Under the pieces are notes generated by a model. It did not search any database. It had not been told where the DNA came from and worked only from the letters and a program-made list of their open reading frames with translations. Of a stretch of DNA of 63,567 nucleotides, positions 6,601-35,546 are shown one piece after another. How positions within the stretch are numbered: the first letter of the stretch is position 1; each line of letters starts with the position of its first letter. Source of the stretch: an uncultured Pseudomonadota bacterium (GTDB taxonomy: Bacteria > Pseudomonadota > Gammaproteobacteria > Methylococcales > Methylomonadaceae); assembly GCA_903928965.1 (NCBI GenBank), contig CAIYSZ010000060.1:1-63567 (forward strand). The letters are read 5' to 3'. A program made the translations under genes and the position numbers.

Positions 6601-7541
6601 TCCCCGCCGGAGCCGGTGGCCGCGCCCGGATGCGGCGAAATCGCCGTCGGATGATTATGCGTCTCCACCTTCATCAAAATATGCGCCGGCTCCCGCTGGT
6701 AAGCGTATTCATGCCGCAGCGGATCACGCAGCCAAACCTCGGTCTCCGCGCCCTTAATCACCGAGGCGTTGTCCCGGTAGGCGGACAAAATATTCTCCGG
6801 ATGCGCGTTATACGTATTGCGGATCATCGCAAACAAGGACAGCGCTTGCGCTTCGCCGTCCAAACGCCAATCGGCGTTGAAAATCTTATGCCGGCAATGC
6901 TCGGAATTGGCCTGGGCGAACATCATCAACTCCACGTCGGTCGGGTTACGGCCCAACTCGGTGAAACTGGCGGCCAAATACTCAATCTCATCCTCCGACA
7001 AGGCCAAGCCCAACTCGCTGTTGGCTAAACGCAAAGCCGCCGCGCCGCCGGACAACAGATCCACGCTTTGCAAGCGCGCGGGCTCGCCTTGAACAAACAA
7101 ATTCTCCGGCGCATGCTCCAGCCAAGCTTGCTCGGTCATGCGATCATGCAACAACGGAGCCAAAACCGCCAGCGCCGCAACATCCAGTCCTTCGCCTTGC
7201 AAGGCGTACTCCACGCCCCGCTCAATGCGGCGCACGGCGGTCAGCCCGCAACGCTCGGCAATCTCGCTGGCCTTGCTCGACCAAGGCGAAATCGTCCCGG
7301 CCCGCGGCGTCACCCATAGCAACGCATCCGCCGCCGCCTCCGCCGCCGGCGCGCCGTAGGCCAACAAAGTTTGCAAACGCGCCAACTCGTCATCATTAAG
7401 CTCCGCGCTTAATTGCACAAAATGGGTAAACCGCGCCGTGACGGCGCTTACCCCGGCATGCAAACCTTGCAAGCTAAGCAACAACTTATCCAAACGAAAA
7501 CGGGAAAGCGCGGAACCGCCGGGTAAAATCAATAGTGTCAT
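3678..7541 (-). CDS. purL: Phosphoribosylformylglycinamidine synthase
   Basis: The 1287-residue protein is the large single-chain form of PurL (FGAM synthase) usual in Gammaproteobacteria. It converts FGAR, glutamine and ATP to FGAM in the fourth step of purine synthesis. In order it shows the PurS-like N-terminus, two PurM-like ATP-binding halves (for example [12 protein letters not shown] and VGKDSLSM) and a C-terminal class I glutaminase with the nucleophile Cys1131 in GVCNGCQM and a final MMPHPER histidine/glutamate motif. Length and motifs are complete. A TATAAT-like box lies at 7556-7561 on the minus strand, but there is no good Shine-Dalgarno sequence before the ATG. Confidence 0.98.
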
Positions 7542-9617: not shown

Positions 9618-10049
9618 TTACATAGAGCGCATCTTGTAATCGACTATGGGATAGGCTTTCTTGTCTTTAGGATCGACCGCCCCACGATCCTGTTCTCCCC
9701 GATGCTCAATTTGCTTGGCAATCATTTGTTCCCAATTGTCATATCCGGCGACTTCGGCTACTCCAGCAGCCTTATTCTTGGCAAAGCCGACTTTTCCCTG
9801 CTCAATAATATCCGCCGGAGTTTTTTGATCAATGGCCTTAAGAAATTCCGCATCGTCCTTGATCTGATTGCGAAGCGACCAATAAGCCACTTCAAATTCT
9901 ACGCGCTGACTTGCCGGCAAACGTTCTTTGATGATTGCCACTGATTTAAGCGCCGTTTTCATACTGCGACCATTAATGTGGTTTGCGTTGCCGCAGGCAT
10001 TCAGCATTAAGCATATCGATAACACTATAAAACCGTGTGAAGCTTTCAT
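9618..10049 (-). CDS. Small lipoprotein (DUF6694-like), last gene of the six-gene operon
   Basis: The 143-residue protein starts with a signal peptide and lipobox (LMLNAC, Cys19), so it is probably anchored in a membrane facing the periplasm. The rest is mainly helical, with IKERLPASQRVEFEVAYWSLRNQI and a DNWEQMI motif; it resembles small DUF6694-type lipoproteins, a match from memory. It has no cofactor motif. It starts 19 bp after the cytochrome gene and is the distal member of a tight operon, so a role with the cytochrome is likely but unproven. Confidence 0.65.
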   Translation of the reverse strand: MKASHGFIVLSICLMLNACGNANHINGRSMKTALKSVAIIKERLPASQRVEFEVAYWSLRNQIKDDAEFLKAIDQKTPADIIEQGKVGFAKNKAAGVAEVAGYDNWEQMIAKQIEHRGEQDRGAVDPKDKKAYPIVDYKMRSM

Positions 10050-10068
10050 TTTTAAGTGATTTCATTTT

Positions 10069-10554
10069 TTAGTTTGATGTTCCGAATGCCTGATTGGCAA
10101 ACGGGTTAAAACTCGGGTGCGTCACTCTATTAAATCCGAACTCGGTTGCCTGATGGCAAGCGTTGCATCCCTCGGTCAAGCTATCGTAATTATTAGTAAA
10201 TGCTCGGCTATCATTGTCTTTGATAGCTTCTTCAAGTCCAGCCAGCGGTTGATCCATGTATTGAGAAATCAACTCCGGAATTGGCTGCTTTATCTGCTTG
10301 TGAGTCCGGTGATATTTCGCGGCATCCTCAAAGCCTTCCCTCAACTCATCCACTTCATAAGCGGCTAATTCCCAATTTCGCGCCAGACCGGCAAACCAAA
10401 GTTTGGCATGGCGATCCGCGCTTTGCGCCATGATTTCACCTAAGCCCGGTATGTAGTGATCGTGTTCTTTCGCGTATTGATGATAGCCGGTGCAGGCCGT
10501 CAAAAGAGTGACCGCGCCCAAAACCAAACCGAAACTAAAAAATGACGATTTCAT
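10069..10554 (-). CDS. Monohaem cytochrome c lipoprotein, class II-like
   Basis: From the ATG at 10554 (preceded by AAGGA) the 161-residue protein has a signal peptide with lipobox LLTAC (Cys21) and one haem motif, C130-x-x-C-H134, near the C-terminus. A haem site near the end of a mostly helical chain is the layout of class II (cytochrome c'-like) proteins. The middle holds a conserved-looking KLWFAGLARNWELAAYEVDEL segment. It is probably a periplasmic, membrane-tethered electron carrier or sensor. The starts further upstream lie within the previous gene and are not needed. It sits between the anchored secreted protein and the DUF6694-like lipoprotein in one operon. Confidence 0.8.
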   Translation of the reverse strand: MKSSFFSFGLVLGAVTLLTACTGYHQYAKEHDHYIPGLGEIMAQSADRHAKLWFAGLARNWELAAYEVDELREGFEDAAKYHRTHKQIKQPIPELISQYMDQPLAGLEEAIKDNDSRAFTNNYDSLTEGCNACHQATEFGFNRVTHPSFNPFANQAFGTSN

Positions 10555-10582
10555 ACACAATTCCTTTGACGACAAAAATTCT

Positions 10583-11197
10583 CTAATGCTTGGACTCAAC
10601 CGGTTTCGCTTTGAGTAAACGCGGCACAAAGTAAGCTGACGCGGCAACCATGATGCCGAAGATGATAAACAATAGCGGCAGGCCTTTATGACCGCCGGTC
10701 TGCTCGGTGACTAAAGCCACGGTTAACGGGATATGCAAGGCGCTGACCTCGGGCGGCGTATGCAGGTCGCTATCATCGACGGTCAAAATCGCCTGATATT
10801 TGCCGGCGGTTTTGAAATCGACCATCGTCGATAGTACACCCTGTTTACAAACGGCCATTGGCAGTTCGGCGACGGTTTGCCCGTCTTCGCGCAGAATTTT
10901 TAACGCCACCGGCTTTTTGCGGACGTCCAGATCAAGTAAATCGATGGAAATTTGGGTTTTGCCGGTCATCGGCAAATCAACGCATTCGGCTACCGGCAGG
11001 CTTTTGCTGTCTTTAGCTTGGGTTGGATCGAGTTGGTAAGCCGCGAAATTGACCACGTAATAATCGTTGGTCTGCATGCAGCCATACATGTCATAACTGC
11101 CGCCGTTACCCTTGCGATTGCCGCCCAACGGCACCGAGGCCTGCCCGATTGTAACCAACAGTAAAGCTAGAACTAAGCATGAATAGAATATTTTCAT
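10583..11197 (-). CDS. Secreted, C-terminally membrane-anchored protein of unknown family
   Basis: I do not recognise this 204-residue protein. It has a signal peptide (to about residue 20), a probably beta-rich periplasmic part of about 150 residues, and one C-terminal membrane helix (LPLLFIIFGIMVAASAYFV) followed by a basic tail. The periplasmic part has three cysteines (YGCM, AECVD, AVCKQG) and a Gly/Tyr/Met-rich start (GGSYDMYGCMQTNDYY) that could bind a metal or form disulfides. Its start overlaps the CopC-like gene's stop (ATGA), so the two are co-translated. It may work with the CopC-like protein. Confidence 0.75.
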   Translation of the reverse strand: MKIFYSCLVLALLLVTIGQASVPLGGNRKGNGGSYDMYGCMQTNDYYVVNFAAYQLDPTQAKDSKSLPVAECVDLPMTGKTQISIDLLDLDVRKKPVALKILREDGQTVAELPMAVCKQGVLSTMVDFKTAGKYQAILTVDDSDLHTPPEVSALHIPLTVALVTEQTGGHKGLPLLFIIFGIMVAASAYFVPRLLKAKPVESKH

Positions 11198-11586
11198 GGC
11201 TTTCCCTCCGCGATCCCCGCTTTGTCGGCGATGGAAAATTTCAAGACGCCGCTGACGATCAAACCGTCTTCGGTAACGACCCGATAACGCGCCGCATAAG
11301 GTCCAGGCGATAAGGGCTTGGTGGTAACGGTCAAGCGGTGGCGCTCGCCTAATTCTAGGCGAGTATCTTTGTTATCTACCCGATTACCCTTATTGTCCAC
11401 GACGACCAAAGAGGGCGAACGTTCTCCGACATTGCCGCTAAACCATAGCTTGACAGCGCCATCAAAATGGGTGACTTCGGCATTGTTTTTGGGTTCGGAT
11501 TTTAGTAGCACCCCTTCGGCGCGACTAACCGGACTGGTGAGCAACAACAATAAAACCCAAATGAATTTAAAAGCAATGTTCTTCAT
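11194..11586 (-). CDS. CopC-like periplasmic protein without the canonical copper ligands
   Basis: From the ATG at 11586 this 130-residue protein has a signal peptide ending SRA and one CopC-type beta-sandwich: LLKSEPKNNAEV, then AVKLWFSGNVGE, SLVVVDNKGN, LSPGPYAARYRVVTEDG and SGVLKFSI. Classical CopC proteins bind Cu(II) through an N-terminal histidine and a D-x-H motif. Here the predicted mature N-terminus is EGVLL and the D-x-H position reads DGL, so both histidines are missing. The fold is recognisable but the usual copper site is not. It may be a structural or partner-binding variant. It overlaps the next gene by four bases. Confidence 0.75.
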   Translation of the reverse strand: MKNIAFKFIWVLLLLLTSPVSRAEGVLLKSEPKNNAEVTHFDGAVKLWFSGNVGERSPSLVVVDNKGNRVDNKDTRLELGERHRLTVTTKPLSPGPYAARYRVVTEDGLIVSGVLKFSIADKAGIAEGKP

Positions 11587-11594
11587 CATAGAAA

Positions 11595-12002
11595 CTAAGG
11601 CAGCCCAAACAGGCCGGCAATAAACCGGACGATCGGATCTGCCAATGGATGGAAAAAACCCAAGGTAATAACGACCAAGCCGCTCACAAAAATACGCGTC
11701 CAGGTTTGTAACGGAAAATCCAGTTTGCGCCACAGAAAATGAAAAATTAGCCAGCTACCCAGCCACACCACTAAAGCCAAAGTCTCCTTTCCGGAATAGG
11801 AACCAATGCTGCCTGTCGGCCCGTTGCCGGTCGAACCTGGCATCCAGTAGCCGTAGGCATGCACGATTTTGTCCAATTCCTTAGTCAACCTGGAAATATG
11901 ATGGCTAATCATCAGTGTCAAAAATGCCAGTAACAACGACAAACCAGCGGCAACCACTGGGCCAGAGTAAAGAGGTTGATCGTTTTCTGATTCGTTTTGC
12001 AT
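11595..12002 (-). CDS. Three-helix membrane protein of unknown function
   Basis: This 135-residue protein has about three membrane helices (near residues 13-33, 73-92 and 103-120) and no recognised family. Histidines lie at the ends of helices (SHHISRL, KIVHAYGYW, LIFHFLW, FFHPLAD), a pattern compatible with haem or metal ligation, though this cannot be shown from sequence alone. A Gly/Ser-rich loop joins helices one and two. It follows the five-helix protein by 13 bp and precedes the CopC-like gene by 8 bp, so it is part of the operon. Confidence 0.7.
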   Translation of the reverse strand: MQNESENDQPLYSGPVVAAGLSLLLAFLTLMISHHISRLTKELDKIVHAYGYWMPGSTGNGPTGSIGSYSGKETLALVVWLGSWLIFHFLWRKLDFPLQTWTRIFVSGLVVITLGFFHPLADPIVRFIAGLFGLP

Positions 12003-12015
12003 AGCGTCTCCCTCG

Positions 12016-12594
12016 TTAAACGAAGCGTAATTTAGCTAAAACCAAGCCAGCCACGAAGCCCAGCGCCAAAAAACTCCACGAAACCAGAATGGTAATACCT
12101 ACAAAACGGGTAATATCGCGGCGGTACTGAATGGGTTGACCATAAAAATAAAGTATGAAAGTGGCGGCCAGCATCAAAGGAAACGGAAATAGCGAGACGA
12201 ATTCCTTAAACTCCATCAGCACGTTATGAAACATGGGAACGCGCGACAATATCCAGTCGCGCGGTCCATCCTGACCCCGATAACGCATGTAAATCCAATT
12301 GCCGCTAATGGCGCCCGCTAAATTTAAAAGGGTAGCCGCCAATGCCCATAGCCGTAAAGAATCCAGCCTGACATTCATTCCTTTGAGTAAGGGAATGGCC
12401 CGATGGGTAAGATAAGTACCGACGAATATAGCCAAAATGGCGCTGACGCCATGAATACCTGCTTTCATGCCGTAATCAGTCGGATAGAAAAAATTCGCGG
12501 CAGGTAGTAATAGTAGCAAGGTCAAGGCTATTGCAACTTGGCTACGTATAACGATCTTGCTGAAATAATCGTGTAAATATTCTCCAGCGGACAT
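12016..12594 (-). CDS. Five-helix membrane protein with membrane-face histidines, first gene of the operon
   Basis: I do not recognise the family. The ATG at 12594 is preferred because GGAGAG lies just before it; an upstream TTG would include the ribosome site. The 192-residue protein has about five membrane helices. The second carries a histidine at each end (AGIHGVSAI and YLTHRAI, about 15 residues apart) and a further one precedes the fourth helix (MFHNVLMEF). Such spacing across a helix is seen in membrane b-type cytochromes, so haem binding is possible, but it is inference. It is the first gene of the six-gene operon that ends at 9618. Confidence 0.7.
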   Translation of the reverse strand: MSAGEYLHDYFSKIVIRSQVAIALTLLLLLPAANFFYPTDYGMKAGIHGVSAILAIFVGTYLTHRAIPLLKGMNVRLDSLRLWALAATLLNLAGAISGNWIYMRYRGQDGPRDWILSRVPMFHNVLMEFKEFVSLFPFPLMLAATFILYFYGQPIQYRRDITRFVGITILVSWSFLALGFVAGLVLAKLRFV

Positions 12595-12859: not shown

Positions 12860-15349
12860 CTAAAAATAAATGGTAAACCCCGCCCGCGCCATCCGCGGCT
12901 CAACCGGATGCCGCACCACGCCGTAGGGCGTGGAAATGGTATTGTTGGTAGGATTCATCAAGCCGTATTGATAAGCGTAAGCGATATCGCTAGTGGTTTC
13001 GCCAAGCAAGTTAAACAGGCTAAAATCCAAACGATAACTTTTTTGCCGGTAACCCAGGCCTAAATTCAGAATGTCCACGTTCGGTGCCCAAATAGAGCCG
13101 TCGGAATCCAACGGCGAATCGCCGAAATGCCGCAAACGCAAGGAACCGAACATCCCGTTCGGCGCGGTCACTTGCACCCCGGCGGCTATCACGGTACCCA
13201 CTAAATTAGGAATATAACTGCCGATGCAAGGTATATTCGGCCGCGCGGTCGGACAACCGCCGTCCACGGATTGCGGCACCTTGGAAAAATGCCCGTAGCT
13301 GCGGGAATAATCCAGATCCAAGGTCACCCAATCGTTAACCTTATAGTAGTTGGTCAACTCCAAGCCGTAACGGTCAGACATGCCGTTGGCGGTAGTGGTG
13401 CCGCTGTCGCCGTCGAACACCAACTCCGAGCTGGATTGCAAATACCAAAGCGCTAAAGTGGAATTCAGGCCGGGAATATAATTTGATCGCGCCCCGACCT
13501 CGCCGCCTCGCGCCCAAGCCATCGGCGTAATCTGCCGTATCAAACTGCCATCCGCCGAGGTAGTGTTATTGGTTTGCGGATTCACCGTCTCCAAGGCCCC
13601 GCGCGCATCGTTCGAGTGATAGCCGTAACCGTAGTTCAAAAAGTATTCGGTATCCTTATACGGCCCTAAAATCGCGCTGAATTTCGGGCTAATCATTTCC
13701 TTGGATTTATACCCCGAGTTGGCGGCGTTAATCGCCGCCGCCACCGACGGATCGGCCGCTTGCAGCGAGCCCGCCGCGATGTAAGGCGAATAAGCGGTGG
13801 TCGAGGAAGCCGGCTGCGCCAAAATCTGCGCATTGCCGGTGGTATACGCGTTGGCCAAGGCGTCCACCTGCATGGTGATGAAATCCGCCCGCAAGGCTTG
13901 AATGGTGCGGAATTTTTCGGTCCAGTGTATTTGGTTTTTAAAATACATGCCGCCGGTGCTTTCCGACACGTTGTCGTCGCTAATCGTATTCAAGTATTGA
14001 CGATTGACCGTTTGGTACAGACCCAAACCCGTGATTTCATCATGCCGGAAGCTCAAACCATAGGTATTATCCATATCCAGCCCGAACAATTTATCGAAAG
14101 AGGTAAACTCCTCGTTGCCGCCCACCTGCACCCGGTGCTCGCGCTGATTGACCTGATCCCCCTGCGGCCCGTTTAAATACCCGGTAAAGTTCGAGTACAA
14201 ATTCAAATCGTAATACACCATATACAAATTGGCGTCGTTCTTCCAATCCTTGCCGGTATTCCACACATTGCTGGAAAAACTGTACCGGTTGGTATCGCCG
14301 CCGTCGGAAGGGCTTAAATTACCGTATATTCCAATATAGCCATCGTCTATCGCCGCTTGCGCCACCTGGTTGGTCGCGGTCCAGGCATTGGTATAGGCCT
14401 TGGCGTTTAGCGCCATGCCCCAATTGTCGTGATCTTGGGTGTAGCGCAAAACGCCATTATACTTATGCCCGTTTTCCGGCACCGCCCATGCCCCGTTATA
14501 AGCTTGAAACTCCGCGCCATACAACAAATCACCCTCACCCAGCTTGCTGGAATTAGCCGCCACCGTCCGGTAATAATCGAACTCGCCGCCGGTAAATTTT
14601 AAAATCCCGCGCGGCAAGCTTTTCATGGTGGTCATTTTATTAAAACCGGCGGCGGCGAAATCGCCGATCTCCGCGTAATACGGCCCTTTGCCGTATTCGA
14701 TTTTGTCCACCAGCTCCGGAATCATGCTGTTCAAATCCATGTAACCCTGGCCATGCGCGTGCGACGGCATATTCATCGGCACTCCGTCCACCACGGTGGT
14801 GAAATCGGTGCCATGATCCAAGTTATAACCGCGCAAGAAATACTGGTTAGCCTTACCGGAACCGCTATGCTGAGTCGCGATCATGCCCGGAATCAACTCC
14901 ACCAACTCGCCTGGACGCGACATGGCGCGAAATTCGATTTGGGCTTGACCAATCTCACCTTGCGAAGCCGAACCGGTCATGCCCAACAAATTCCGCGAGC
15001 GGCCGGACACCACCTTAATTTCATACAACTCCTCAGGTTTTTCCGTCTTCGCGGCCTTACCCGGCTTTCCCTGGGGTTTGGCCGGGGTCACCGCCGGCGC
15101 GGCCGGCTGATCGGTTCCCGGAACGCCGCCAGCGGAGGGAGCCGCCGCCCCGGCTTTACCCTCGCTGCTTGCCGGCGCGGCGCGGTGTTTCTTGCGCGGA
15201 TTCGTCTTTTTAACCGTAGCCGGCGCGGCGGCGGCCGCTTCATTGGATTCAGGGCCGGGGGCGGCAAAACTTTGCGCATGGCTAAGTCCCAGGATTATTC
15301 CTAGGCTAACGATTAATTCTCTTTTAGGATGCGTTAAATAGGCGTTCAT
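12860..15349 (-). CDS. TonB-dependent outer membrane receptor
   Basis: The 829-residue protein has a signal peptide, an unusual Ala/Pro/Lys-rich stretch of about 80 residues, a TonB-box-like region (ELYEIKVVSG), a plug domain (about residues 115-250) and a beta-barrel ending in a terminal phenylalanine (GFTIYF). The plug contains VDGVPMNMPSHAHGQGYMDLN, written here only as a His/Met-rich loop, common in one clade of metal- or metallophore-type receptors. The substrate is not identifiable. It starts 19 bp after the HupE-like gene, so the two are probably co-transcribed, which argues for uptake of a metal or its complex across both membranes. Confidence 0.9.
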   Translation of the reverse strand: MNAYLTHPKRELIVSLGIILGLSHAQSFAAPGPESNEAAAAAPATVKKTNPRKKHRAAPASSEGKAGAAAPSAGGVPGTDQPAAPAVTPAKPQGKPGKAAKTEKPEELYEIKVVSGRSRNLLGMTGSASQGEIGQAQIEFRAMSRPGELVELIPGMIATQHSGSGKANQYFLRGYNLDHGTDFTTVVDGVPMNMPSHAHGQGYMDLNSMIPELVDKIEYGKGPYYAEIGDFAAAGFNKMTTMKSLPRGILKFTGGEFDYYRTVAANSSKLGEGDLLYGAEFQAYNGAWAVPENGHKYNGVLRYTQDHDNWGMALNAKAYTNAWTATNQVAQAAIDDGYIGIYGNLSPSDGGDTNRYSFSSNVWNTGKDWKNDANLYMVYYDLNLYSNFTGYLNGPQGDQVNQREHRVQVGGNEEFTSFDKLFGLDMDNTYGLSFRHDEITGLGLYQTVNRQYLNTISDDNVSESTGGMYFKNQIHWTEKFRTIQALRADFITMQVDALANAYTTGNAQILAQPASSTTAYSPYIAAGSLQAADPSVAAAINAANSGYKSKEMISPKFSAILGPYKDTEYFLNYGYGYHSNDARGALETVNPQTNNTTSADGSLIRQITPMAWARGGEVGARSNYIPGLNSTLALWYLQSSSELVFDGDSGTTTANGMSDRYGLELTNYYKVNDWVTLDLDYSRSYGHFSKVPQSVDGGCPTARPNIPCIGSYIPNLVGTVIAAGVQVTAPNGMFGSLRLRHFGDSPLDSDGSIWAPNVDILNLGLGYRQKSYRLDFSLFNLLGETTSDIAYAYQYGLMNPTNNTISTPYGVVRHPVEPRMARAGFTIYF

Positions 15350-15367: not shown

Positions 15368-16645
15368 TTATTTTAAGGACAGGCGAAATTTCAAATCAAA
15401 AGCGAAAGCTTGTAGACAGACCGGCGGCGGCGTAGCCAAGCCGACCGGCGAGGTAAATCTTGAACGCAATCCGGACGCGGGGAAAAGCCAAAAGTTAAGA
15501 CTATTCGTTTCCGGCGCGGAAGGCGGAAGTTTCAACTTGCAAAATAGACGGTAAACCACAACACGGCACAATAGCCGCGCGGCGGACGCAGACCCGGAAA
15601 CAACGGGCGAAACGATGAAAACAGGAATGAGGGGTAAAACAGAAGGAATGACAGGCGGGACGGCAAAACTGGCGTCAACCGGCGGTGAAGTCAAACCCAC
15701 GCCGTTGCCGCACAACGGAGAACCCGGCGTGAAATTAATCCCGGGAAAATAATGCCTAAAGCTCAAACCCAGCGCCACGCCGGGCGGACATTCAGCCGCA
15801 ACACTAACACTAAAACAAATCGGCCTTGCCGCGTGCGGCCCATCGCCGCCCTCGTCAACAAAAGTCGCCGGCTGATAATACGCCGCGGCCGCGCACGCTT
15901 CCGCGCCGTCAACCCGCGGCAAAGCCATCGCGCCGGGCGGCGAATGATCACTCAGCGTGGCGGCTAAAATCCCGCCGCCAGACCGCGCGCCGGACCAGAC
16001 CGCCGTGGCGCCATCCGCCGTTTTACCCAGACCAGCCGCCTTGGCGTGGTTGGCTAGCGAAGCCTGCGAAAAAAACAAGGTCAAAAAACTGGCGGCGAAG
16101 AACAGCACAGCCTTGGCGGCCAAAATTCCGGCGCCGTGCAACAACAGGGTCGCCAAAACAAAGCCTAAAGTATAGGATATTAAACCGGCGGAAGCGGAAA
16201 TCTCTTGGCCGTGCGCAAAGCCATGAAAAAACGCAAAAAACGCCACAATAGCGGTATTGGTCCGGTTGCTAAAGCGCATATTGCGCGCTATGAACACACT
16301 AAAAACGGCGCAAGAAATTAAAATCACGCCATCCACGTTCGGCAGGGCGAAGCCGGCCGCGCCGGCCATGCCGCCCAAACTCATAACGCCGACGAAAGCC
16401 AACGGCAATTGCCAAATCGCCCGCCCGCGCAATTGCGCCGCCCAAACTCCGACCGCCAGCATAGTCAACAAATGGTCCCAACCGGCCAACGGATGGTGAA
16501 AACCGTTGCTCCAGCCGGCGTCATCCAACGCCAAAACGCCGCGCGCGGCCCAGGCCAACGCCGCCAGGCACGCCAAACCGGCGGCCAGCCAAGCGCTACG
16601 GCTGGCGACGCGTCGAGATGCGGTTTTGGCGGAAATCGGTTTCAT
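15368..16645 (-). CDS. HupE/UreJ-like metal permease with long anomalous C-terminus
   Basis: The first 220 or so residues form a HupE/UreJ-type membrane protein: a signal-like first helix, the signature HPLAGWDHLLTMLAVG and the histidine motif FFHGFAHGQE, with about six helices. This family moves Ni, Co or other divalent metals. From about residue 225 the frame continues for nearly 200 residues of Pro/Ser/Val-rich sequence with almost no lysine, no domain I know and a base composition like a non-coding shadow. A frameshift that removed the natural stop would explain it, as would a real extension. The start at 16645 avoids a non-hydrophobic leader; no ribosome site decides it. It precedes the TonB receptor by 18 bp. 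Confidence 0.7.
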   Translation of the reverse strand: MKPISAKTASRRVASRSAWLAAGLACLAALAWAARGVLALDDAGWSNGFHHPLAGWDHLLTMLAVGVWAAQLRGRAIWQLPLAFVGVMSLGGMAGAAGFALPNVDGVILISCAVFSVFIARNMRFSNRTNTAIVAFFAFFHGFAHGQEISASAGLISYTLGFVLATLLLHGAGILAAKAVLFFAASFLTLFFSQASLANHAKAAGLGKTADGATAVWSGARSGGGILAATLSDHSPPGAMALPRVDGAEACAAAAYYQPATFVDEGGDGPHAARPICFSVSVAAECPPGVALGLSFRHYFPGINFTPGSPLCGNGVGLTSPPVDASFAVPPVIPSVLPLIPVFIVSPVVSGSASAARLLCRVVVYRLFCKLKLPPSAPETNSLNFWLFPASGLRSRFTSPVGLATPPPVCLQAFAFDLKFRLSLK

Positions 16646-16884
16646 GGGGGTATAAAATTCGGCAAAGTATTCATGCACACTTAATCATTAGGCGGGCTAT
16701 ATTATCAGCTTCAAAACCAATAATCAAAAAATACTCGGAGAATATGCCATGCCGAATTCCGTGGACATAAACAATTAGCCGCCGACGGCGTATAATTCAT
16801 CCGGCGCTATAATTAAAACAGCCGGCAAAGGCGCGCATGCAGCCCAAGCCGACGCGAAACTAACCGATCTTAAGGGGAAAAGCT

Positions 16885-29705: not shown

Positions 29706-30008
29706 CTAAACGCGGCCGTATTGGATAATAGGCGTGACCCAATACTCCACGCCGCTGCCGGCGAATTCCGATTTTAAAAGGTTTAGCAAAGCCGCAACCC
29801 CATCGCTATCCAAGGAGATTTGCATGCCGATGTAACGCTGCCGCCCCAGTACCTGCTCCGCCAACGACAAATGATGCTGCCCAATGTAATGCCGGCTCAA
29901 TGCAAAACTGGTAAAGCCGCCAACCTCCATGCCCAGCAAACAATCCGCCACCACGTCCCCTAGAGCGGACGGCGCATGTATCGTCACCCAATATTCCGCC
30001 CGCCGCAT
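29706..30008 (-). CDS. DUF3240 family protein of heavy-metal efflux operon
   Basis: The 100-residue cytoplasmic protein fits DUF3240, a small PII/CutA-like ferredoxin-fold family found at the end of CzcCBA-type operons. It starts with a beta-strand (YWVTIHAPSALGDVVADCLL) and ends with another (VEYWVTPIIQYGRV). Its ATG overlaps the efflux pump stop codon (TAATG), so it is translationally coupled to the pump. It may sense metal or modulate the pump; no function has been shown that I know of. Confidence 0.8.
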   Translation of the reverse strand: MRRAEYWVTIHAPSALGDVVADCLLGMEVGGFTSFALSRHYIGQHHLSLAEQVLGRQRYIGMQISLDSDGVAALLNLLKSEFAGSGVEYWVTPIIQYGRV

Positions 30009-33000
30009 TACCGGCCACCGCGGGCTTGGCCGAAACGCAAATACAAAATCGGTAACAATATCAGCGTCAAGCTGGTCGAAGAAACCAAACCGCCGGTCAC
30101 CACAATAGCCAGCGGCCGTTGAATCTCGGAACCAGGCCCGGAAGCGAATAATACCGGAAGCAGACCCAAGGCGGCAATACTGGCGGTCATCAACACCGGC
30201 CGCAAGCGGCGCGCGGCGCCGACCAGCACGACGCGTTCCGCCGGCATGCCGCTCGCCGCCAACTGGTTAAAATAACTCAACAGCACCACGCCGTTCAACA
30301 CCGCAATGCCCAGCAAGGCGATAAATCCCACCGAGGCGGGCACGGACAAATATTCGCCGCTGGCCGCCAAAGCCAATACGCCGCCCACTAAGGCCAGCGG
30401 AATATTCGACAACACCAAAACCGCCTGCCGAATCGAACCAAATGTGGAAAACAGCAACAAAAAAATCAAACTCAAGGCGACGGGCGTCACCAACGACAAT
30501 CTCGCGGCGGCGCGTTGCTGATTCTCGAACTGACCGCCGTACTCCACCCTAAACCCCAGCGGCAACTTAATCTTGCCGGCAATCGCTTGCCGCGCTTCCT
30601 CCACAAAACCGACCAAATCCCGCCCCTCCACATTACAACGAATCAAGGCATAACGCTGGCCTTTTTCCCGGTTGATCGCCACCATGCCATCCACCAATGC
30701 GATGTTGGCCACGGCGGTAATGGGCAAATGCTCGCCGTTGGGCAAGGAAATCTGCAAATTCTCAAAATTAGCGGTATTGGCCGCTCCGCGCAACAAAAGC
30801 GGCGTACGCTTCACCCCCTCCTGCACGATGCCGATGCGCAAACCTTCAATCTGCGCCCGCAACATGGTTTCGATGCCGTCGCTGTCCAGACCGAAACGTC
30901 CGGCCATCTGCTTATCCACCTTCACCTGCAAAAACCGCATCCCATTATTCTTGCGTAAAAAAATGTCGGTAGCGCCGGAAATGCCGCGTAACAAACCTTC
31001 GATCTCTTCGGCTTTAGAGTTCAATTCCGTCAAATCGTTCCCGAACAATTTAATCGCCAAATCGCCGCGCGCCCCGGTCAACATCTCCGACACCCGCATC
31101 TCTATCGGCTGCGTGAAACCGAAAACAATGCCGGGCGTATCGCGCATGGCCACGCGGATTGCCTCGATTAAATCCTTCTTATCCGCGAAACGCCATTGAT
31201 CTCGGGGTTTCAAACTTAAAAACGTATCCGTCTCGTTCAAACCCATGGGGTCCAGACCCAATTCATCCGAACCGACGCGGCCGATTGCCGCCTCAATTTC
31301 GGGTACGTTGCGCAATAAATTCTTTTGCACCTGACGGTCCAGGCGCACCGACTCATCCAAGCCGATCGAGGGCAATTTTTCCAATTGCACGATGATGTCG
31401 CCCTCATCCATGGTCGGCATGAAAGTCCCGCCCAAGCGGAAAAACACCAAGGCCCCGCTCAAAAGCAGCAAACCCGCCGCCGCATACACCGCTTTCTGGC
31501 GATGCAAACACCAACTTAACAGCGGCAGATAAGCCGCGGACAATTTGCGCGGCAACCACGGCTCCTCGTGCGGCGCTTGCCGCAGCCAGTAAGAAGCCAA
31601 CACCGGAATCACCGTCAACGACAACAACAAAGCGCCGCCCAAGGCGAATACGATGGTCATCGCCACCGGGGCGAACAATTTACCCTCCAAACCCTGCAAA
31701 CTCAACAACGGCACGAATACAATCATAATGATCAAAATGCCGGAAGTCACCGGCGCCGCTACCTCGCGCACCGCCCGGTAAATCAAGTGCAGGCGCGGCG
31801 TGCGCGCCGCCTTGCGCGGATCGGCCAACTGACTGATGATATTCTCCACCACCACCACCGCGCCATCCACCAACATGCCGATGGCAATGGCCAAGCCGCC
31901 CAAACTCATCAAATTGGCCGACATATTCGCCGCGTGCATCATAATAAACGTAGCCAGGGCCGCCAAAGGCAGCACTAGCGCCACCACCAGCGCCGCGCGC
32001 AAATCGCCCAAAAACAAAATCAACAACGCCACCACCAAAACTATCGCCTCGGCCAAACCCTTGGTCACCGTATGCACCGCGTGTCCGACCAACACCCCCC
32101 GGTTATAAAACACCTTCAATTCCACGCCGGGCGGCGTCACGCCGCGCAACCCGTCCAGTTTCTTCTCCAATTCGGTGATGGTTTGCCTAGCGTTAGCGCC
32201 GCGCAAGCCCAGCACCACGGCGCTCACCGTTTCCTCTTCGCCGTTTTTACTGACCGCGCCATAGCGGGTCAACGCGCCGATGCGCACCTCGGCAATATCC
32301 CCCACCGTCACCGGCAAACCGTTTTGCTGCTCCACCACGATGCTTTTAATATCATGTTCGTTTTGAATGCGGCCCTCCACCCGTACGACCAAGGTTTCCT
32401 CGCCCTCCGCCAAGCGCCCGGCGCCGTCGTTACGGTTATTGTTGCTCAAGGCCGCGATCACTTGCGCCGTGGTCAAATTGCGCGCCGCCATACGCACATT
32501 GTCCGGAATCACCTCGAAACTGCGCACTAGGCCACCCAAGGCGTTAACGTCGGCCACACCATTCACAGTACGCAACGCCGGACGGATGGTCCAATCCAGC
32601 AACTCGCGGCGCTGCATCACACTCAAACCGCCGCCCTCGATGGTAAACATAAACATCTCGCCCAGCGGCGTGGTCATCGGCGCGATGCCGCCGCTGACGC
32701 CGGCCGGCAAATTCGGCCAGACCGCATTCAAGCGTTCCGCCACTTGCTGGCGGGCCCAGAAAATATCCACCCCCTCTTCAAAATCCAGGGTAATATCCGT
32801 AATCGCGTACTTGGCTAGAGAACGCAACATGGTTTGCCGCGGGATACCCAGCAACTCTACCTCCACCGGTGCGGTAATCCGTGACTCCACTTCCTCCGGC
32901 GTCATGCCGTCCGCCTTGATGATAATCTTCACTTGAGTGGGCGAAATCTCCGGAAAAGCGTCAATCGGCAATTGATTGAACGCGTAACCCCCCGCCAGCG

Positions 33001-33067
33001 CCAATAACACCGCCAATACCAGCACCAATAAGCGCTGCGTCAGCGCGAACCGGATCAAGGCCGCCAT
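30008..33067 (-). CDS. CzcA/CusA-family heavy-metal efflux RND transporter
   Basis: At 1019 residues with two repeats of one plus five helices and large periplasmic loops, this is the proton-driven inner-membrane pump of a tripartite metal exporter. Recognisable parts are IDAFPEISPTQVKI near the N-terminus, the fourth-helix motif AIGMLVDGAVVVVEN, and NGVVLLSYFNQL in the second half. The fourth-helix motif lacks the DFG of typical zinc/cobalt CzcA and is not the CusA copper form either, so the substrate (a divalent or monovalent heavy metal) is uncertain. It begins directly after the adaptor stop with no gap. Confidence 0.93.
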   Translation of the reverse strand: MAALIRFALTQRLLVLVLAVLLALAGGYAFNQLPIDAFPEISPTQVKIIIKADGMTPEEVESRITAPVEVELLGIPRQTMLRSLAKYAITDITLDFEEGVDIFWARQQVAERLNAVWPNLPAGVSGGIAPMTTPLGEMFMFTIEGGGLSVMQRRELLDWTIRPALRTVNGVADVNALGGLVRSFEVIPDNVRMAARNLTTAQVIAALSNNNRNDGAGRLAEGEETLVVRVEGRIQNEHDIKSIVVEQQNGLPVTVGDIAEVRIGALTRYGAVSKNGEEETVSAVVLGLRGANARQTITELEKKLDGLRGVTPPGVELKVFYNRGVLVGHAVHTVTKGLAEAIVLVVALLILFLGDLRAALVVALVLPLAALATFIMMHAANMSANLMSLGGLAIAIGMLVDGAVVVVENIISQLADPRKAARTPRLHLIYRAVREVAAPVTSGILIIMIVFVPLLSLQGLEGKLFAPVAMTIVFALGGALLLSLTVIPVLASYWLRQAPHEEPWLPRKLSAAYLPLLSWCLHRQKAVYAAAGLLLLSGALVFFRLGGTFMPTMDEGDIIVQLEKLPSIGLDESVRLDRQVQKNLLRNVPEIEAAIGRVGSDELGLDPMGLNETDTFLSLKPRDQWRFADKKDLIEAIRVAMRDTPGIVFGFTQPIEMRVSEMLTGARGDLAIKLFGNDLTELNSKAEEIEGLLRGISGATDIFLRKNNGMRFLQVKVDKQMAGRFGLDSDGIETMLRAQIEGLRIGIVQEGVKRTPLLLRGAANTANFENLQISLPNGEHLPITAVANIALVDGMVAINREKGQRYALIRCNVEGRDLVGFVEEARQAIAGKIKLPLGFRVEYGGQFENQQRAAARLSLVTPVALSLIFLLLFSTFGSIRQAVLVLSNIPLALVGGVLALAASGEYLSVPASVGFIALLGIAVLNGVVLLSYFNQLAASGMPAERVVLVGAARRLRPVLMTASIAALGLLPVLFASGPGSEIQRPLAIVVTGGLVSSTSLTLILLPILYLRFGQARGGR

Positions 33068-34159
33068 TTATTCTCCCTCGCCCAAGCCCAGCCAAGCCGC
33101 CTTCAAGGCCGCCGCGCCGCGCACCGCGATCAGCTCGCCGCCATTCAAGGGTCCGCTGATCAAGGCCTCATGCTCTTGCTTGCCGTTCACGGCAACCTCG
33201 GTAGCGTAAAAACCGGCGGCGTTACGCACAAACACATAATGACGCCCTTCATACTCCGCCACGGCGCTGTTTTCCACCTTGAAATTTCGCCGCGGGCCGC
33301 CCTGCAAAATCTGCACGTTCACCGACTGCCCGACGCGCAAACCGCCGCCATTGCCGTCAATGACCGCCCGCGCCAGCACGGTTTGATTATCCTGATTCAC
33401 ACTCTGCCCGATCAAACGAATGCTGGCGGCGACGTTGGCATGCTCCACCAAGGCTTGATCGCCGATTTGCAAACTATGTACCCGCTCTTGCGGAATATTG
33501 ATTTCCAACCACAATTCCGACAAATCCGCCAACAAATAAATCGGCGCCTGCATGTCCAGCCGCGCGCCGACGCCGACCATACGCTCCAGCACCACCCCCG
33601 TCATCGGCGCTCGAATCGGCAGCAAACCATTCAAGCGTCCGGAAACGCGCAAGCGACCAATTTCCGCCTCGTTCATGCCGGCGATTTGCAACAATTGCCG
33701 CGCCGAATTCACTTGCGCCTGCTTGCTCAAATACACCGTCTCCGTCTCGTGCCAGCGCCGGTCGGCGATAACCCCCTCATCCAACAATTTTTTATCCCGA
33801 CCGTAATCCAGCTCGGCCAAACTCATTTCACTGGCCGCGGTTAAAAAATCCCGTTGCAAGGCCACCAATTCAGGACTGTTGATTTGGGCCAATACCTGAT
33901 TTTTCTTCACCGTATCGCCGATATTAGCGCTCAACTGCACTAACAAGCCCGGCTGAGGGCTGGTAACCAGCCGCTCGTGATTAGCCGGGGCGACCACCTT
34001 GGCCGGCGCGTACAACAACGGCACTTGGGCGCTGTCGCCCAACGGCCCGGTTTGAATATTCAAATGTTCGATCTGCCGCGGGCTCATCTCAATTTGCGGC
34101 TCCAAGGCCAAGACCGGCGCGGCGGACAGCAGGCCCAACAGCAGCAGCCAAGCATTCAT
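33068..34159 (-). CDS. Efflux RND periplasmic adaptor (CzcB/CusB-like)
   Basis: The 363-residue protein is the membrane-fusion component linking the pump to the outer-membrane channel. It has a signal peptide, a lipoyl-like half (SPQPGLLVQLSANIGDTVKKNQVLAQINSPEL), a helical hairpin, the second half (IRAPMTGVVLERMVGVGARLD) and beta-barrel domains. It has no His-rich N-terminal metal-binding extension. Its ATG overlaps the stop of the channel gene, and its stop abuts the pump start. Confidence 0.92.
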   Translation of the reverse strand: MNAWLLLLGLLSAAPVLALEPQIEMSPRQIEHLNIQTGPLGDSAQVPLLYAPAKVVAPANHERLVTSPQPGLLVQLSANIGDTVKKNQVLAQINSPELVALQRDFLTAASEMSLAELDYGRDKKLLDEGVIADRRWHETETVYLSKQAQVNSARQLLQIAGMNEAEIGRLRVSGRLNGLLPIRAPMTGVVLERMVGVGARLDMQAPIYLLADLSELWLEINIPQERVHSLQIGDQALVEHANVAASIRLIGQSVNQDNQTVLARAVIDGNGGGLRVGQSVNVQILQGGPRRNFKVENSAVAEYEGRHYVFVRNAAGFYATEVAVNGKQEHEALISGPLNGGELIAVRGAAALKAAWLGLGEGE

Positions 34160-35442
34160 GGCAACTCTCCCACCGCTTGATTATAAAAAGAGATATTCCG
34201 CTGCAACTTGACCTCTTGCTCCTTGGCGTTGCGAATCGCTTGTAAACTGCGGGCTTGTATCTTCAATAAATCCAGCAAATTGATTTCACCGGCTGAAAAA
34301 CTGGTTTCCATCATCTTTAAATGGTCCTCGGCTATTTTTTTCAACTCGTTGCCTATCGCCACCTCCTTGCGCGACACCTCCAGCGCATGCTCCGCCTCAT
34401 GCAAATTGCGCTCCAAAAAGCGGTGCAAATGTTCGCGTTGCGCCAGCATGCGGTTCAATTCCAAATAGGCCGCGGCAATCTCGGGCGCATCGTAAGTCAA
34501 GTGTCCGAATGGAATTATCACACTAACGCCGGCAGTCTGATTATTGCCCGCCATCGGATCATGCGTGGCGGTGGTGGTAACATTTAATTTAGGCTGGTTG
34601 ATCGTATCCGTGGTTTTCGCCCACTCCACCGTCGCCTGCTTCCGCGCGATCATAGCTTCCGCCGCTTCCACTTGCGGATGAGTGGGCAATATTTGCCGGG
34701 TCTGGCTCAAATGCTCATGGTAATCGGCCGGCGCGCGATTGATGCGCGTCAAATTGGTGTAAGCCTTGCGGCTATGCATCAATTCCGCCTCCGCCTGAAT
34801 TAACTGCGAACGGTTTTGCAAATGCTCGCTCTCGGCCAACAACAAATCGGCGCGCGCCAAATCGCCCAACTCCACCCGCCGCCGCACTTTTTGCAGCAAC
34901 TGCGCCGAAATATCCACCGTATATTGCGCCTGTTGCAAACGTATATCGGCCAAGGCGATGTTCCATAAGGCCTCGCGCACCAAACGCGCCACCTCCAGTT
35001 TCAAAGCCGCCGATTGCTTCAAGGCCGAATCATGCGCGTGCTCGGCAATCAACAACGCCGCTTCGCGCTGCCCCCAGAACCACGGCGTGAATTCCACCTC
35101 GGCGGTAGAGTCGCTATAACCCCGATTCTGTGTAAATCTATCATCATCATAACCCAGCAATAATTGGGTCGAGCCCGCCAACCAACTTCCGCCCCTGACG
35201 TCCCAAGAATCCGCCTCTTCGCTCAAGGCCTGACTAATAAGCCGGTCCGGGTATTGCTCCAAGGTTAGCTCCACCAACTCGTGTAAATTTAAGGCCGGAT
35301 CATCCGGCAACGGATCGGAATGTTCCACCTCCCAAGCCGGCGGTTGTCCCGCCGCCGCATCCTCCGGCGCGGGCAAGCCTCCCGCCAGCGCTAGCCACGC
35401 GGACACAACGATATTGCAATTCACCTGAAGGCGCCTGAACAT
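34156..35442 (-). CDS. TolC-family outer membrane efflux protein (CzcC-like)
   Basis: From the ATG at 35442, which has GGAG before it, the 428-residue protein has a signal peptide and the two outer-membrane-efflux repeats of long helices (LNLHELVELTLEQYPDRLI; AEADLLLAESEHLQNRS-like stretch; SFSAGEINLLDLLKIQARSLQAI). It forms the outer-membrane exit duct of the tripartite exporter. The gene order channel-adaptor-pump on one strand is the standard czcCBA order. Confidence 0.9.
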   Translation of the reverse strand: MFRRLQVNCNIVVSAWLALAGGLPAPEDAAAGQPPAWEVEHSDPLPDDPALNLHELVELTLEQYPDRLISQALSEEADSWDVRGGSWLAGSTQLLLGYDDDRFTQNRGYSDSTAEVEFTPWFWGQREAALLIAEHAHDSALKQSAALKLEVARLVREALWNIALADIRLQQAQYTVDISAQLLQKVRRRVELGDLARADLLLAESEHLQNRSQLIQAEAELMHSRKAYTNLTRINRAPADYHEHLSQTRQILPTHPQVEAAEAMIARKQATVEWAKTTDTINQPKLNVTTTATHDPMAGNNQTAGVSVIIPFGHLTYDAPEIAAAYLELNRMLAQREHLHRFLERNLHEAEHALEVSRKEVAIGNELKKIAEDHLKMMETSFSAGEINLLDLLKIQARSLQAIRNAKEQEVKLQRNISFYNQAVGELP

Positions 35443-35546
35443 TGTGCACTCCGAAAATTTGCTATAACGACCGGCCGCGAATACCGGATACGGCAAGCGG
35501 GGCGCGGCCAATGGCGAACATCGCGCGCCGGAGGGCTTTGCCAACC

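Follow-up and report, generated by a model that had tools for sequence, protein, structure and literature searches.

A six-gene operon on the minus strand (12594 down to 9618) of a 63,567-nucleotide contig from an uncultured bacterium of the Methylomonadaceae (CAIYSZ010000060.1; contig C60 of a genome of 3.25 Mb, 92% complete) is best explained, if tentatively, as belonging to a TonB/HupE locus for metal acquisition, of which it would form the inner-membrane and periplasmic part; nickel is the most likely metal and cobalt a possible one. The whole contig is referred to here as the window, and the genes as A to F. Their six open reading frames are separated by 13, 8, -4, 28 and 19 bp, in agreement with the original prediction; the start codons taken for A, C and E lie later than in the longest frame. 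The operon should be read together with its same-strand upstream neighbors, a TonB-dependent receptor (12860–15349; type 1, or window type) that ends 265 bp upstream of A and has relatives in nikR loci, and a HupE/UreJ permease (15368–16678) carrying a long C-terminal extension. In the path proposed here, the receptor would bring a metal chelate into the periplasm, where C and the membrane-anchored D, both without the usual copper sites, would retain or position this complex, or the cargo it brings. A putative complex of A and B (five plus three helices, with conserved histidines near both helix ends and a histidine-containing, acidic stretch around MEFKEF) would then pass the metal through the membrane or to the HupE permease, with the cytochrome E as an optional redox accessory.

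Gene order and neighborhood of the A-B-C-D operon

A is present in 20 of the 151 genomes of the window genome's family; of 398 evenly drawn Pseudomonadota, 1 has it, and this is the window genome itself. When the genome_contigs collection (84,980 species) was scanned with a pattern that detects only copies containing one of two short peptides, 36 loci were returned, 32 in Methylococcales, 1 in a Nevskia metagenome-assembled genome and 3 in Paenibacillus and Cohnella (both Paenibacillaceae at NCBI). A profile search detected A in 16/104 genomes of the family to which the P. koleovorans genome belongs. With duplicate contigs removed, the Methylococcales set comprises 40 copies at 39 loci, and some gene absences in this set may be artefacts of short contigs. 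B is the next gene after A in all 40 copies; C occurs in 33 and D in the same 33, a conservation of gene order (A-B 40/40, A-B-C-D 33/40) that exceeds chance and bears out the proposal of a conserved membrane/periplasmic gene set in methanotrophs. In 21/40 copies E is encoded within 4 kb and on the same strand (25/40 in either orientation within 6 kb), F is found inside the operon in 5/40, all Methylomonas, and the complete set from A to F in 4/40 (the window, L027, L051 and L054). A-B forms the core, usually as part of the operon A-B-C-D, and the six genes are not one fixed system; to the original question of whether they recur together in other genomes, the answer is split between A-B and A-B-C-D, which do in most copies, and the full six, which seldom do.

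The neighborhood of these genes is most informative in Methylomonas, where nikR is divergent from and adjacent to A in 17 of the 19 non-duplicate copies (the exceptions being the window and L058) and HupE lies within 5–6 kb of A, likewise in 17/19. Window-type receptors accompany 13 of these copies and a second receptor type 11; the latter scores best against siderophore and FecA models, all below their cut-offs. The one nikR representative tested reaches 174.6 bits against NCBIfam NF002815 (cut-off 83) and also matches Pfam NikR_C. Together, nikR, HupE and a TonB receptor at the same locus point to nickel or cobalt. Among the 21 copies from other Methylococcales, HupE was found in 6, the second-type receptor in 8, the window-type receptor in 3 and tonB in 3, and a TonB receptor lies within the scanned distance in 28/40 copies overall. 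At the level of genomes, NikR occurs in 9/20 with A versus 4/131 without it (Fisher p = 1e-6, not corrected for kinship). One family member without A (G041) has the arrangement tonB-exbB-exbD-nikR-receptor-HupE_UreJ_2 (tonB and exbD assigned partly by eye), its receptor being of the window type and 54% identical to that of the window. HupE_UreJ_2 proteins with an invariant histidine at their apparent mature N-terminus adjoin window-type receptors and nikR.

Two candidate regulatory elements were rejected. A cobalamin riboswitch between HupE and the receptor had been suspected because of the odd C-terminal reading frame of HupE; no Rfam match at gathering level was obtained in the window or in eight loci, which argues against such a riboswitch and is counted in favor of the TonB/HupE reading. 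A GTTAT...ATTATAAC dyad between nikR and A was considered as a NikR operator, but its best spacing ranges from 13 to 17 over 17 loci and TATAAT occurs within it when read on the strand of nikR, so that the conserved element looks like nikR's own -10 box. The HupE protein of the window has about 240 residues beyond its Pfam domain (residues 37–194); this extension shares with its relatives a short HYYPDINxTPGxxLLSNGVGLTSPPV-like patch, and the third-codon-position excess of differences is far weaker in it than in the domain.

Several genomes (G107, G007, G009 and G057) carry two or three copies of A, and one locus (L037) has A copies in tandem, at 7135 and 11392, with a two-component system between them. 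Since the best NCBIfam models of the two-component systems adjoining some copies are mixed and all below cut-off, these systems do not name the metal. Neither a search for plasmid carriage of the locus nor a PADLOC defense-system search with A and B gave a match.

CopC- and PmoD-fold proteins without the usual copper ligands

C (11194–11586, minus strand, 130 aa) is a periplasmic CopC-domain protein, as had been predicted: it matches Pfam CopC at 7e-15 (56.2 bits, cut-off 23.3), and a profile built from 11 of its rows matches the CopC structure 5icu at 7.6e-13. Against the NCBIfam copper_CopC equivalog it scores 38.3 bits and does not reach the cut-off of 95; a ligand-bearing CopC paralogue in L055 also stays below it (72.2), and this cut-off therefore does not discriminate. 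The DGH of the solved CopC domains 5icu and 9c14 is replaced by DGL in C in every one of 34 A-linked rows (33 loci and a duplicate row), and by eye the mature protein starts with AEG, at L081 with GDA, without an N-terminal histidine. The histidine of DGH/DTH is the second Cu(II) ligand of CopC. As judged from these alignments, C lacks both Cu(II)-ligand positions, the mature N-terminal histidine and the DGH/DTH histidine, at 33/33 loci.

D (10583–11197, minus strand, 204 aa), which could not be named originally, gives nothing above cut-off in Pfam. A profile of 29 D rows and 2 paralogue rows finds PmoD (6cpd, E 2.4e-5) in the region from the second cysteine onward. The AlphaFold2 model (pLDDT 82.5), with a C-terminal membrane helix at 172–194, has 6cpd chains A and B as its only Foldseek matches at E ≤ 0.001 (9.2e-10 and 3.0e-9; TM 0.73 by target, 0.46 by query). 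Profile and model together indicate a PmoD fold for this periplasmic protein. The three cysteines reported for D are present, although only C40 and C72 are invariant in 31 rows, the third being particular to the window protein among the aligned rows. Measured against the motif Cx7MxHxnC, the A-linked rows checked (29, from the 33 loci that have D) carry V, I or A at C+8 and N at C+10 in 29/29 cases, and D belongs by its sequence to the PmoD class with CxnC only and without Met or His copper ligands. According to the excerpts of PMC6189053, PmoDs with Cx7MxHxnC form CuA, and one representative of the Cx9HxnC class, which often lies near copC, bound copper. The same excerpts put the class with nothing beyond CxnC at 29%, typically near copC or genes of unknown relevance, and report that one member of it bound copper nonetheless.

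Two loci contain a separate copC-pmoD-HupE_UreJ_2 operon 5–7 kb from A-B-C-D (L055, 17040–19198; L074, 16526–18683). In both of these paralogous pairs (2/2), CopC has AHA and DTH and PmoD has retained Cx9H. Compared with this small set of two, the A-linked pair lacks both sets of ligands together, with loss rather than gain as the probable direction.

These observations bear on the reading of the operon as a methanotroph copper module, from which pMMO or some other copper enzyme would receive copper or electrons. The folds of C and D belong to families linked to copper and to methane oxidizers in the excerpted PMC6189053, where even a ligand-poor PmoD bound copper, and the window genome, in keeping with the likely methanotroph originally proposed, has one pMMO/AMO-family gene. 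However, this gene lies on another contig (C110), C is without its ligand histidines throughout, D has Asn where a copper-binding class has His, and the Methylomonas neighborhood is that of NikR, HupE and TonB. We regard a copper module as quite unlikely, and the original suggestion that the operon feeds or matures a copper enzyme is correspondingly weakened.

Downstream of D, E (10069–10554, minus strand, 161 aa) is a c-type, cytochrome c'-like protein and a predicted lipoprotein. As in cytochrome c' and other class II cytochromes, its CxxCH stands near the C-terminus (invariant in 10/10 rows), in line with the class II-like cytochrome originally predicted; the match to Pfam Cytochrom_C_2 (E-value 0.01, 17.3 bits) falls short of the cut-off of 26.5, and E differs from those proteins in a distinct conserved stretch, RHxKLWxAGxxxNWxLAxYE. 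F (9618–10049, minus strand, 143 aa) is a small predicted lipoprotein with a weak, below-cut-off likeness to DUF6694 (7e-4). A gene that by eye looks like dapA starts 158 bp downstream of the operon, and a resistance-nodulation-division (RND) efflux set, an AcrB-like pump with an OEP outer-membrane channel, occupies 30008–35544 on the minus strand of the window. At other loci, a protein predicted to be secreted and about 122 aa long (4524–4892 in L028, and relatives) accompanies 16/19 Methylomonas copies, counted with duplicates dropped; its member from L043 has no Pfam match.

The membrane pair A-B in methanotrophs and Bacillota

For neither A (12016–12594, minus strand, 192 aa), a five-helix membrane protein of an unnamed family, nor B (11595–12002, minus strand, 135 aa), with three helices, did Pfam or NCBIfam give a match at E up to 1. 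Among PDB sequences there is no match to A and three at chance level to B, and the description of the two as membrane proteins of no known family holds. The AlphaFold2 model of A (22 sequences; mean pLDDT 79, pTM 0.75) has long helices at 10–32, 42–70, 77–106, 137–151 and 159–190 and places H48, H64 and H123 near helix ends, in line with the five-helix protein with histidines at helix ends that had been proposed. The conserved residues of A are Q19, H48, H64, GNWxYxxYR (98–106), H123 and MEFKEF (127–132). In an alignment of 60 rows, H48, H64, H123, N99, W100, Y102, Y105, E128, K130 and E131 are retained in 41/42 Pseudomonadota and 18/18 Bacillota, the sole deviating row seeming to be one piece of a broken copy in L049. 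B, in which H34 and G71-K72 are conserved, keeps H34 in 40/41 Pseudomonadota and 18/18 Bacillota rows and H88 in 41/41 and 7/18, respectively; H35 (40/41), H48 (37/41) and H118 (40/41 Pseudomonadota rows) were found in none of the Bacillota rows. Charge counts in the Bacillota rows of A favor an inside location of the N-terminus and of loops 2 and 4. By the same count loop 3 is equally positive in the methanotroph rows, and the topology, in which H48, H123 and MEFKEF would face the periplasm and H64 the cytoplasm, is therefore tentative.

Because A and B together have eight helices and lie beside copC and a pmoD homologue, a split CopD was considered. It was rejected at the sequence level: hhalign against nine methanotroph CopD proteins gave Prob 0.2% for A and 0.9% for B, compared with 100% for the control of A against Bacillota A. 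Against HupE_UreJ_2 proteins the values are 0.1% and 0.8%, with no sequence relation.

The conserved histidines near both helix ends would also suit a new b-type cytochrome, whose hemes carry electrons across the membrane with E as partner and reduce the metal or chelate delivered by the TonB receptor. A c-type cytochrome gene does lie near A in about half of the Methylococcales copies, as counted above, and Foldseek ranks cytochrome b561 third and fifth for the A model, but at E 0.46 and 0.64. Nothing in the PDB matches that model at E ≤ 0.001, the best entries being assorted helix bundles, and neither A nor B has a convincing sequence relative there. The ligands would be A H48 and A H123 together with B H34 near the outer face, and A H64 together with B H88 near the inner face; of these, B H88 is missing from most Bacillota rows. 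Moreover, no E-like gene was found at 18 Bacillota loci, and 15/40 Methylococcales copies have no E within reach, some of them on short contigs. We consider the b-type cytochrome unlikely.

In Bacillota, gene neighborhoods were compared at 15 loci, from 14 of the 16 genomes with A in the P. koleovorans family and from G549, which contributes a second copy. The gene after A-B is metallophosphoesterase-like at 15/15 loci, a small lipoprotein-like gene comes next at 14/15, and a same-strand metallophosphoesterase lies upstream in 11/15. This order, metallophosphoesterase, A, B, phosphoesterase-like and lipoprotein-like, is seen at L117–L127, L083 and L084. The upstream gene is Metallophos in L083 and L117, where it was tested; the downstream phosphatase-like protein of L083, possibly degenerate, matches nothing in Pfam. 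Across the 18 Bacillota loci, no relative of C, D or E was found at E < 1e-3, and the function of A-B does not require these proteins everywhere.

A core common to both groups with changing partners, and the regular pairing with phosphatase genes, could indicate that A-B, as a general factor of metallation or assembly outside the cytoplasm, delivers a metal to the secreted metalloprotein of its operon, that is, the phosphatases in Bacillota and C-D-E in methanotrophs. Neither C nor D has an intact known metal site, however, the downstream phosphatase-like protein is itself possibly degenerate, and the TonB receptor with its tonB-exbB-exbD linkage suits uptake better; this explanation is the least probable of those considered here. 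Somewhat unlikely, though less so than the cytochrome, is a further reading in which A-B is a new two-subunit family of membrane metal transporters, shared by methanotrophs and Paenibacillaceae. In methanotrophs it would have recruited a CopC-PmoD pair that jointly lost its copper sites, so that a copper module came to serve nickel or cobalt in TonB/HupE/NikR loci.

Weight of the nickel reading and relation to known systems

For the TonB/HupE reading, a need for nickel in the window genome is made plausible by nikR and by hypA, the latter in a cluster that by eye reads as hypABDEF. Several results weigh against this reading. The association of nikR with A is almost wholly that of one genus, nikR being adjacent in 0/21 non-Methylomonas Methylococcales copies. 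In the window genome nikR stands among unrelated genes on another contig (C97), and no NikR operator was found between nikR and A at the 17 loci. Urease is not associated with A (12/20 versus 68/131 genomes, p = 0.63) and gave no alpha-subunit match in the window genome, where the NiFe-hydrogenase matches are weak, the best (7.4e-17) being taken for NuoD. The association of NiFe hydrogenase with A is weak and threshold-dependent (9/20 with A versus 23/131 without at E < 1e-180, p = 0.015; 9/20 versus 40/131 at E < 1e-40, p = 0.21). HupE itself could be the permease, which would leave A-B without a clear job. The protein families to which C and D belong are elsewhere linked to copper, and in Bacillota A-B sits with metallophosphoesterases, HupE_UreJ_2 occurring at 3/18 loci.

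Among known systems, the copC-pmoD(-copD) modules of methane and ammonia oxidizers, as excerpted from PMC6189053, share with the operon adjacent genes for CopC-fold and PmoD-fold proteins and, in PmoD, the C-terminal membrane helix and CxnC cysteines of D; the ligand-poor PmoD class next to copC is already noted there. The operon differs in that both proteins are without the usual copper ligands, that they are joined in the membrane by A-B, for which profile comparison shows no relation to CopD, and that its context in Methylomonas is NikR, HupE and TonB. NikR-linked uptake through TonB receptors has a precedent in Helicobacter pylori, where, in the excerpts of PMC3856676, FrpB4 is NikR-repressed and FecA3 nickel-controlled. 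The Methylomonas loci likewise combine nikR and TonB receptors, although here the inner-membrane part would include A-B-C-D-E, and the putative control by NikR is suggested by gene adjacency. Further nickel TonB receptors are listed in the excerpted PMC11247825. According to the excerpts of PMC12537917, DUF4198 genes occur in the vicinity of TonB receptors and NikR, and HupE/UreJ-2 proteins ('anglerases') carry metal-binding domains with an N-terminal histidine. An N-terminal-His HupE_UreJ_2 beside a window-type receptor and nikR resembles these loci, whereas A-B-C-D is a separate gene set of which those excerpts gave no mention. The excerpted PMC2667541 reasons much as is done for the operon here: transporters encoded next to nickel enzymes, NikR or B12 genes were assigned to nickel or cobalt. 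In the literature searched we found no description of the operon, A-B having no name to search by, nor of NikR together with Methylomonas.

At 33 Methylococcales loci, CopC and PmoD, proteins commonly read as copper proteins, both stand without their usual copper ligands beside an unnamed membrane pair. If the TonB/HupE reading is true, it would caution against assigning copper by family name and supply TonB-dependent nickel uptake with a candidate for its inner-membrane step; it would also open a first way into the A-B family, whose members extend to Gram-positive bacteria.

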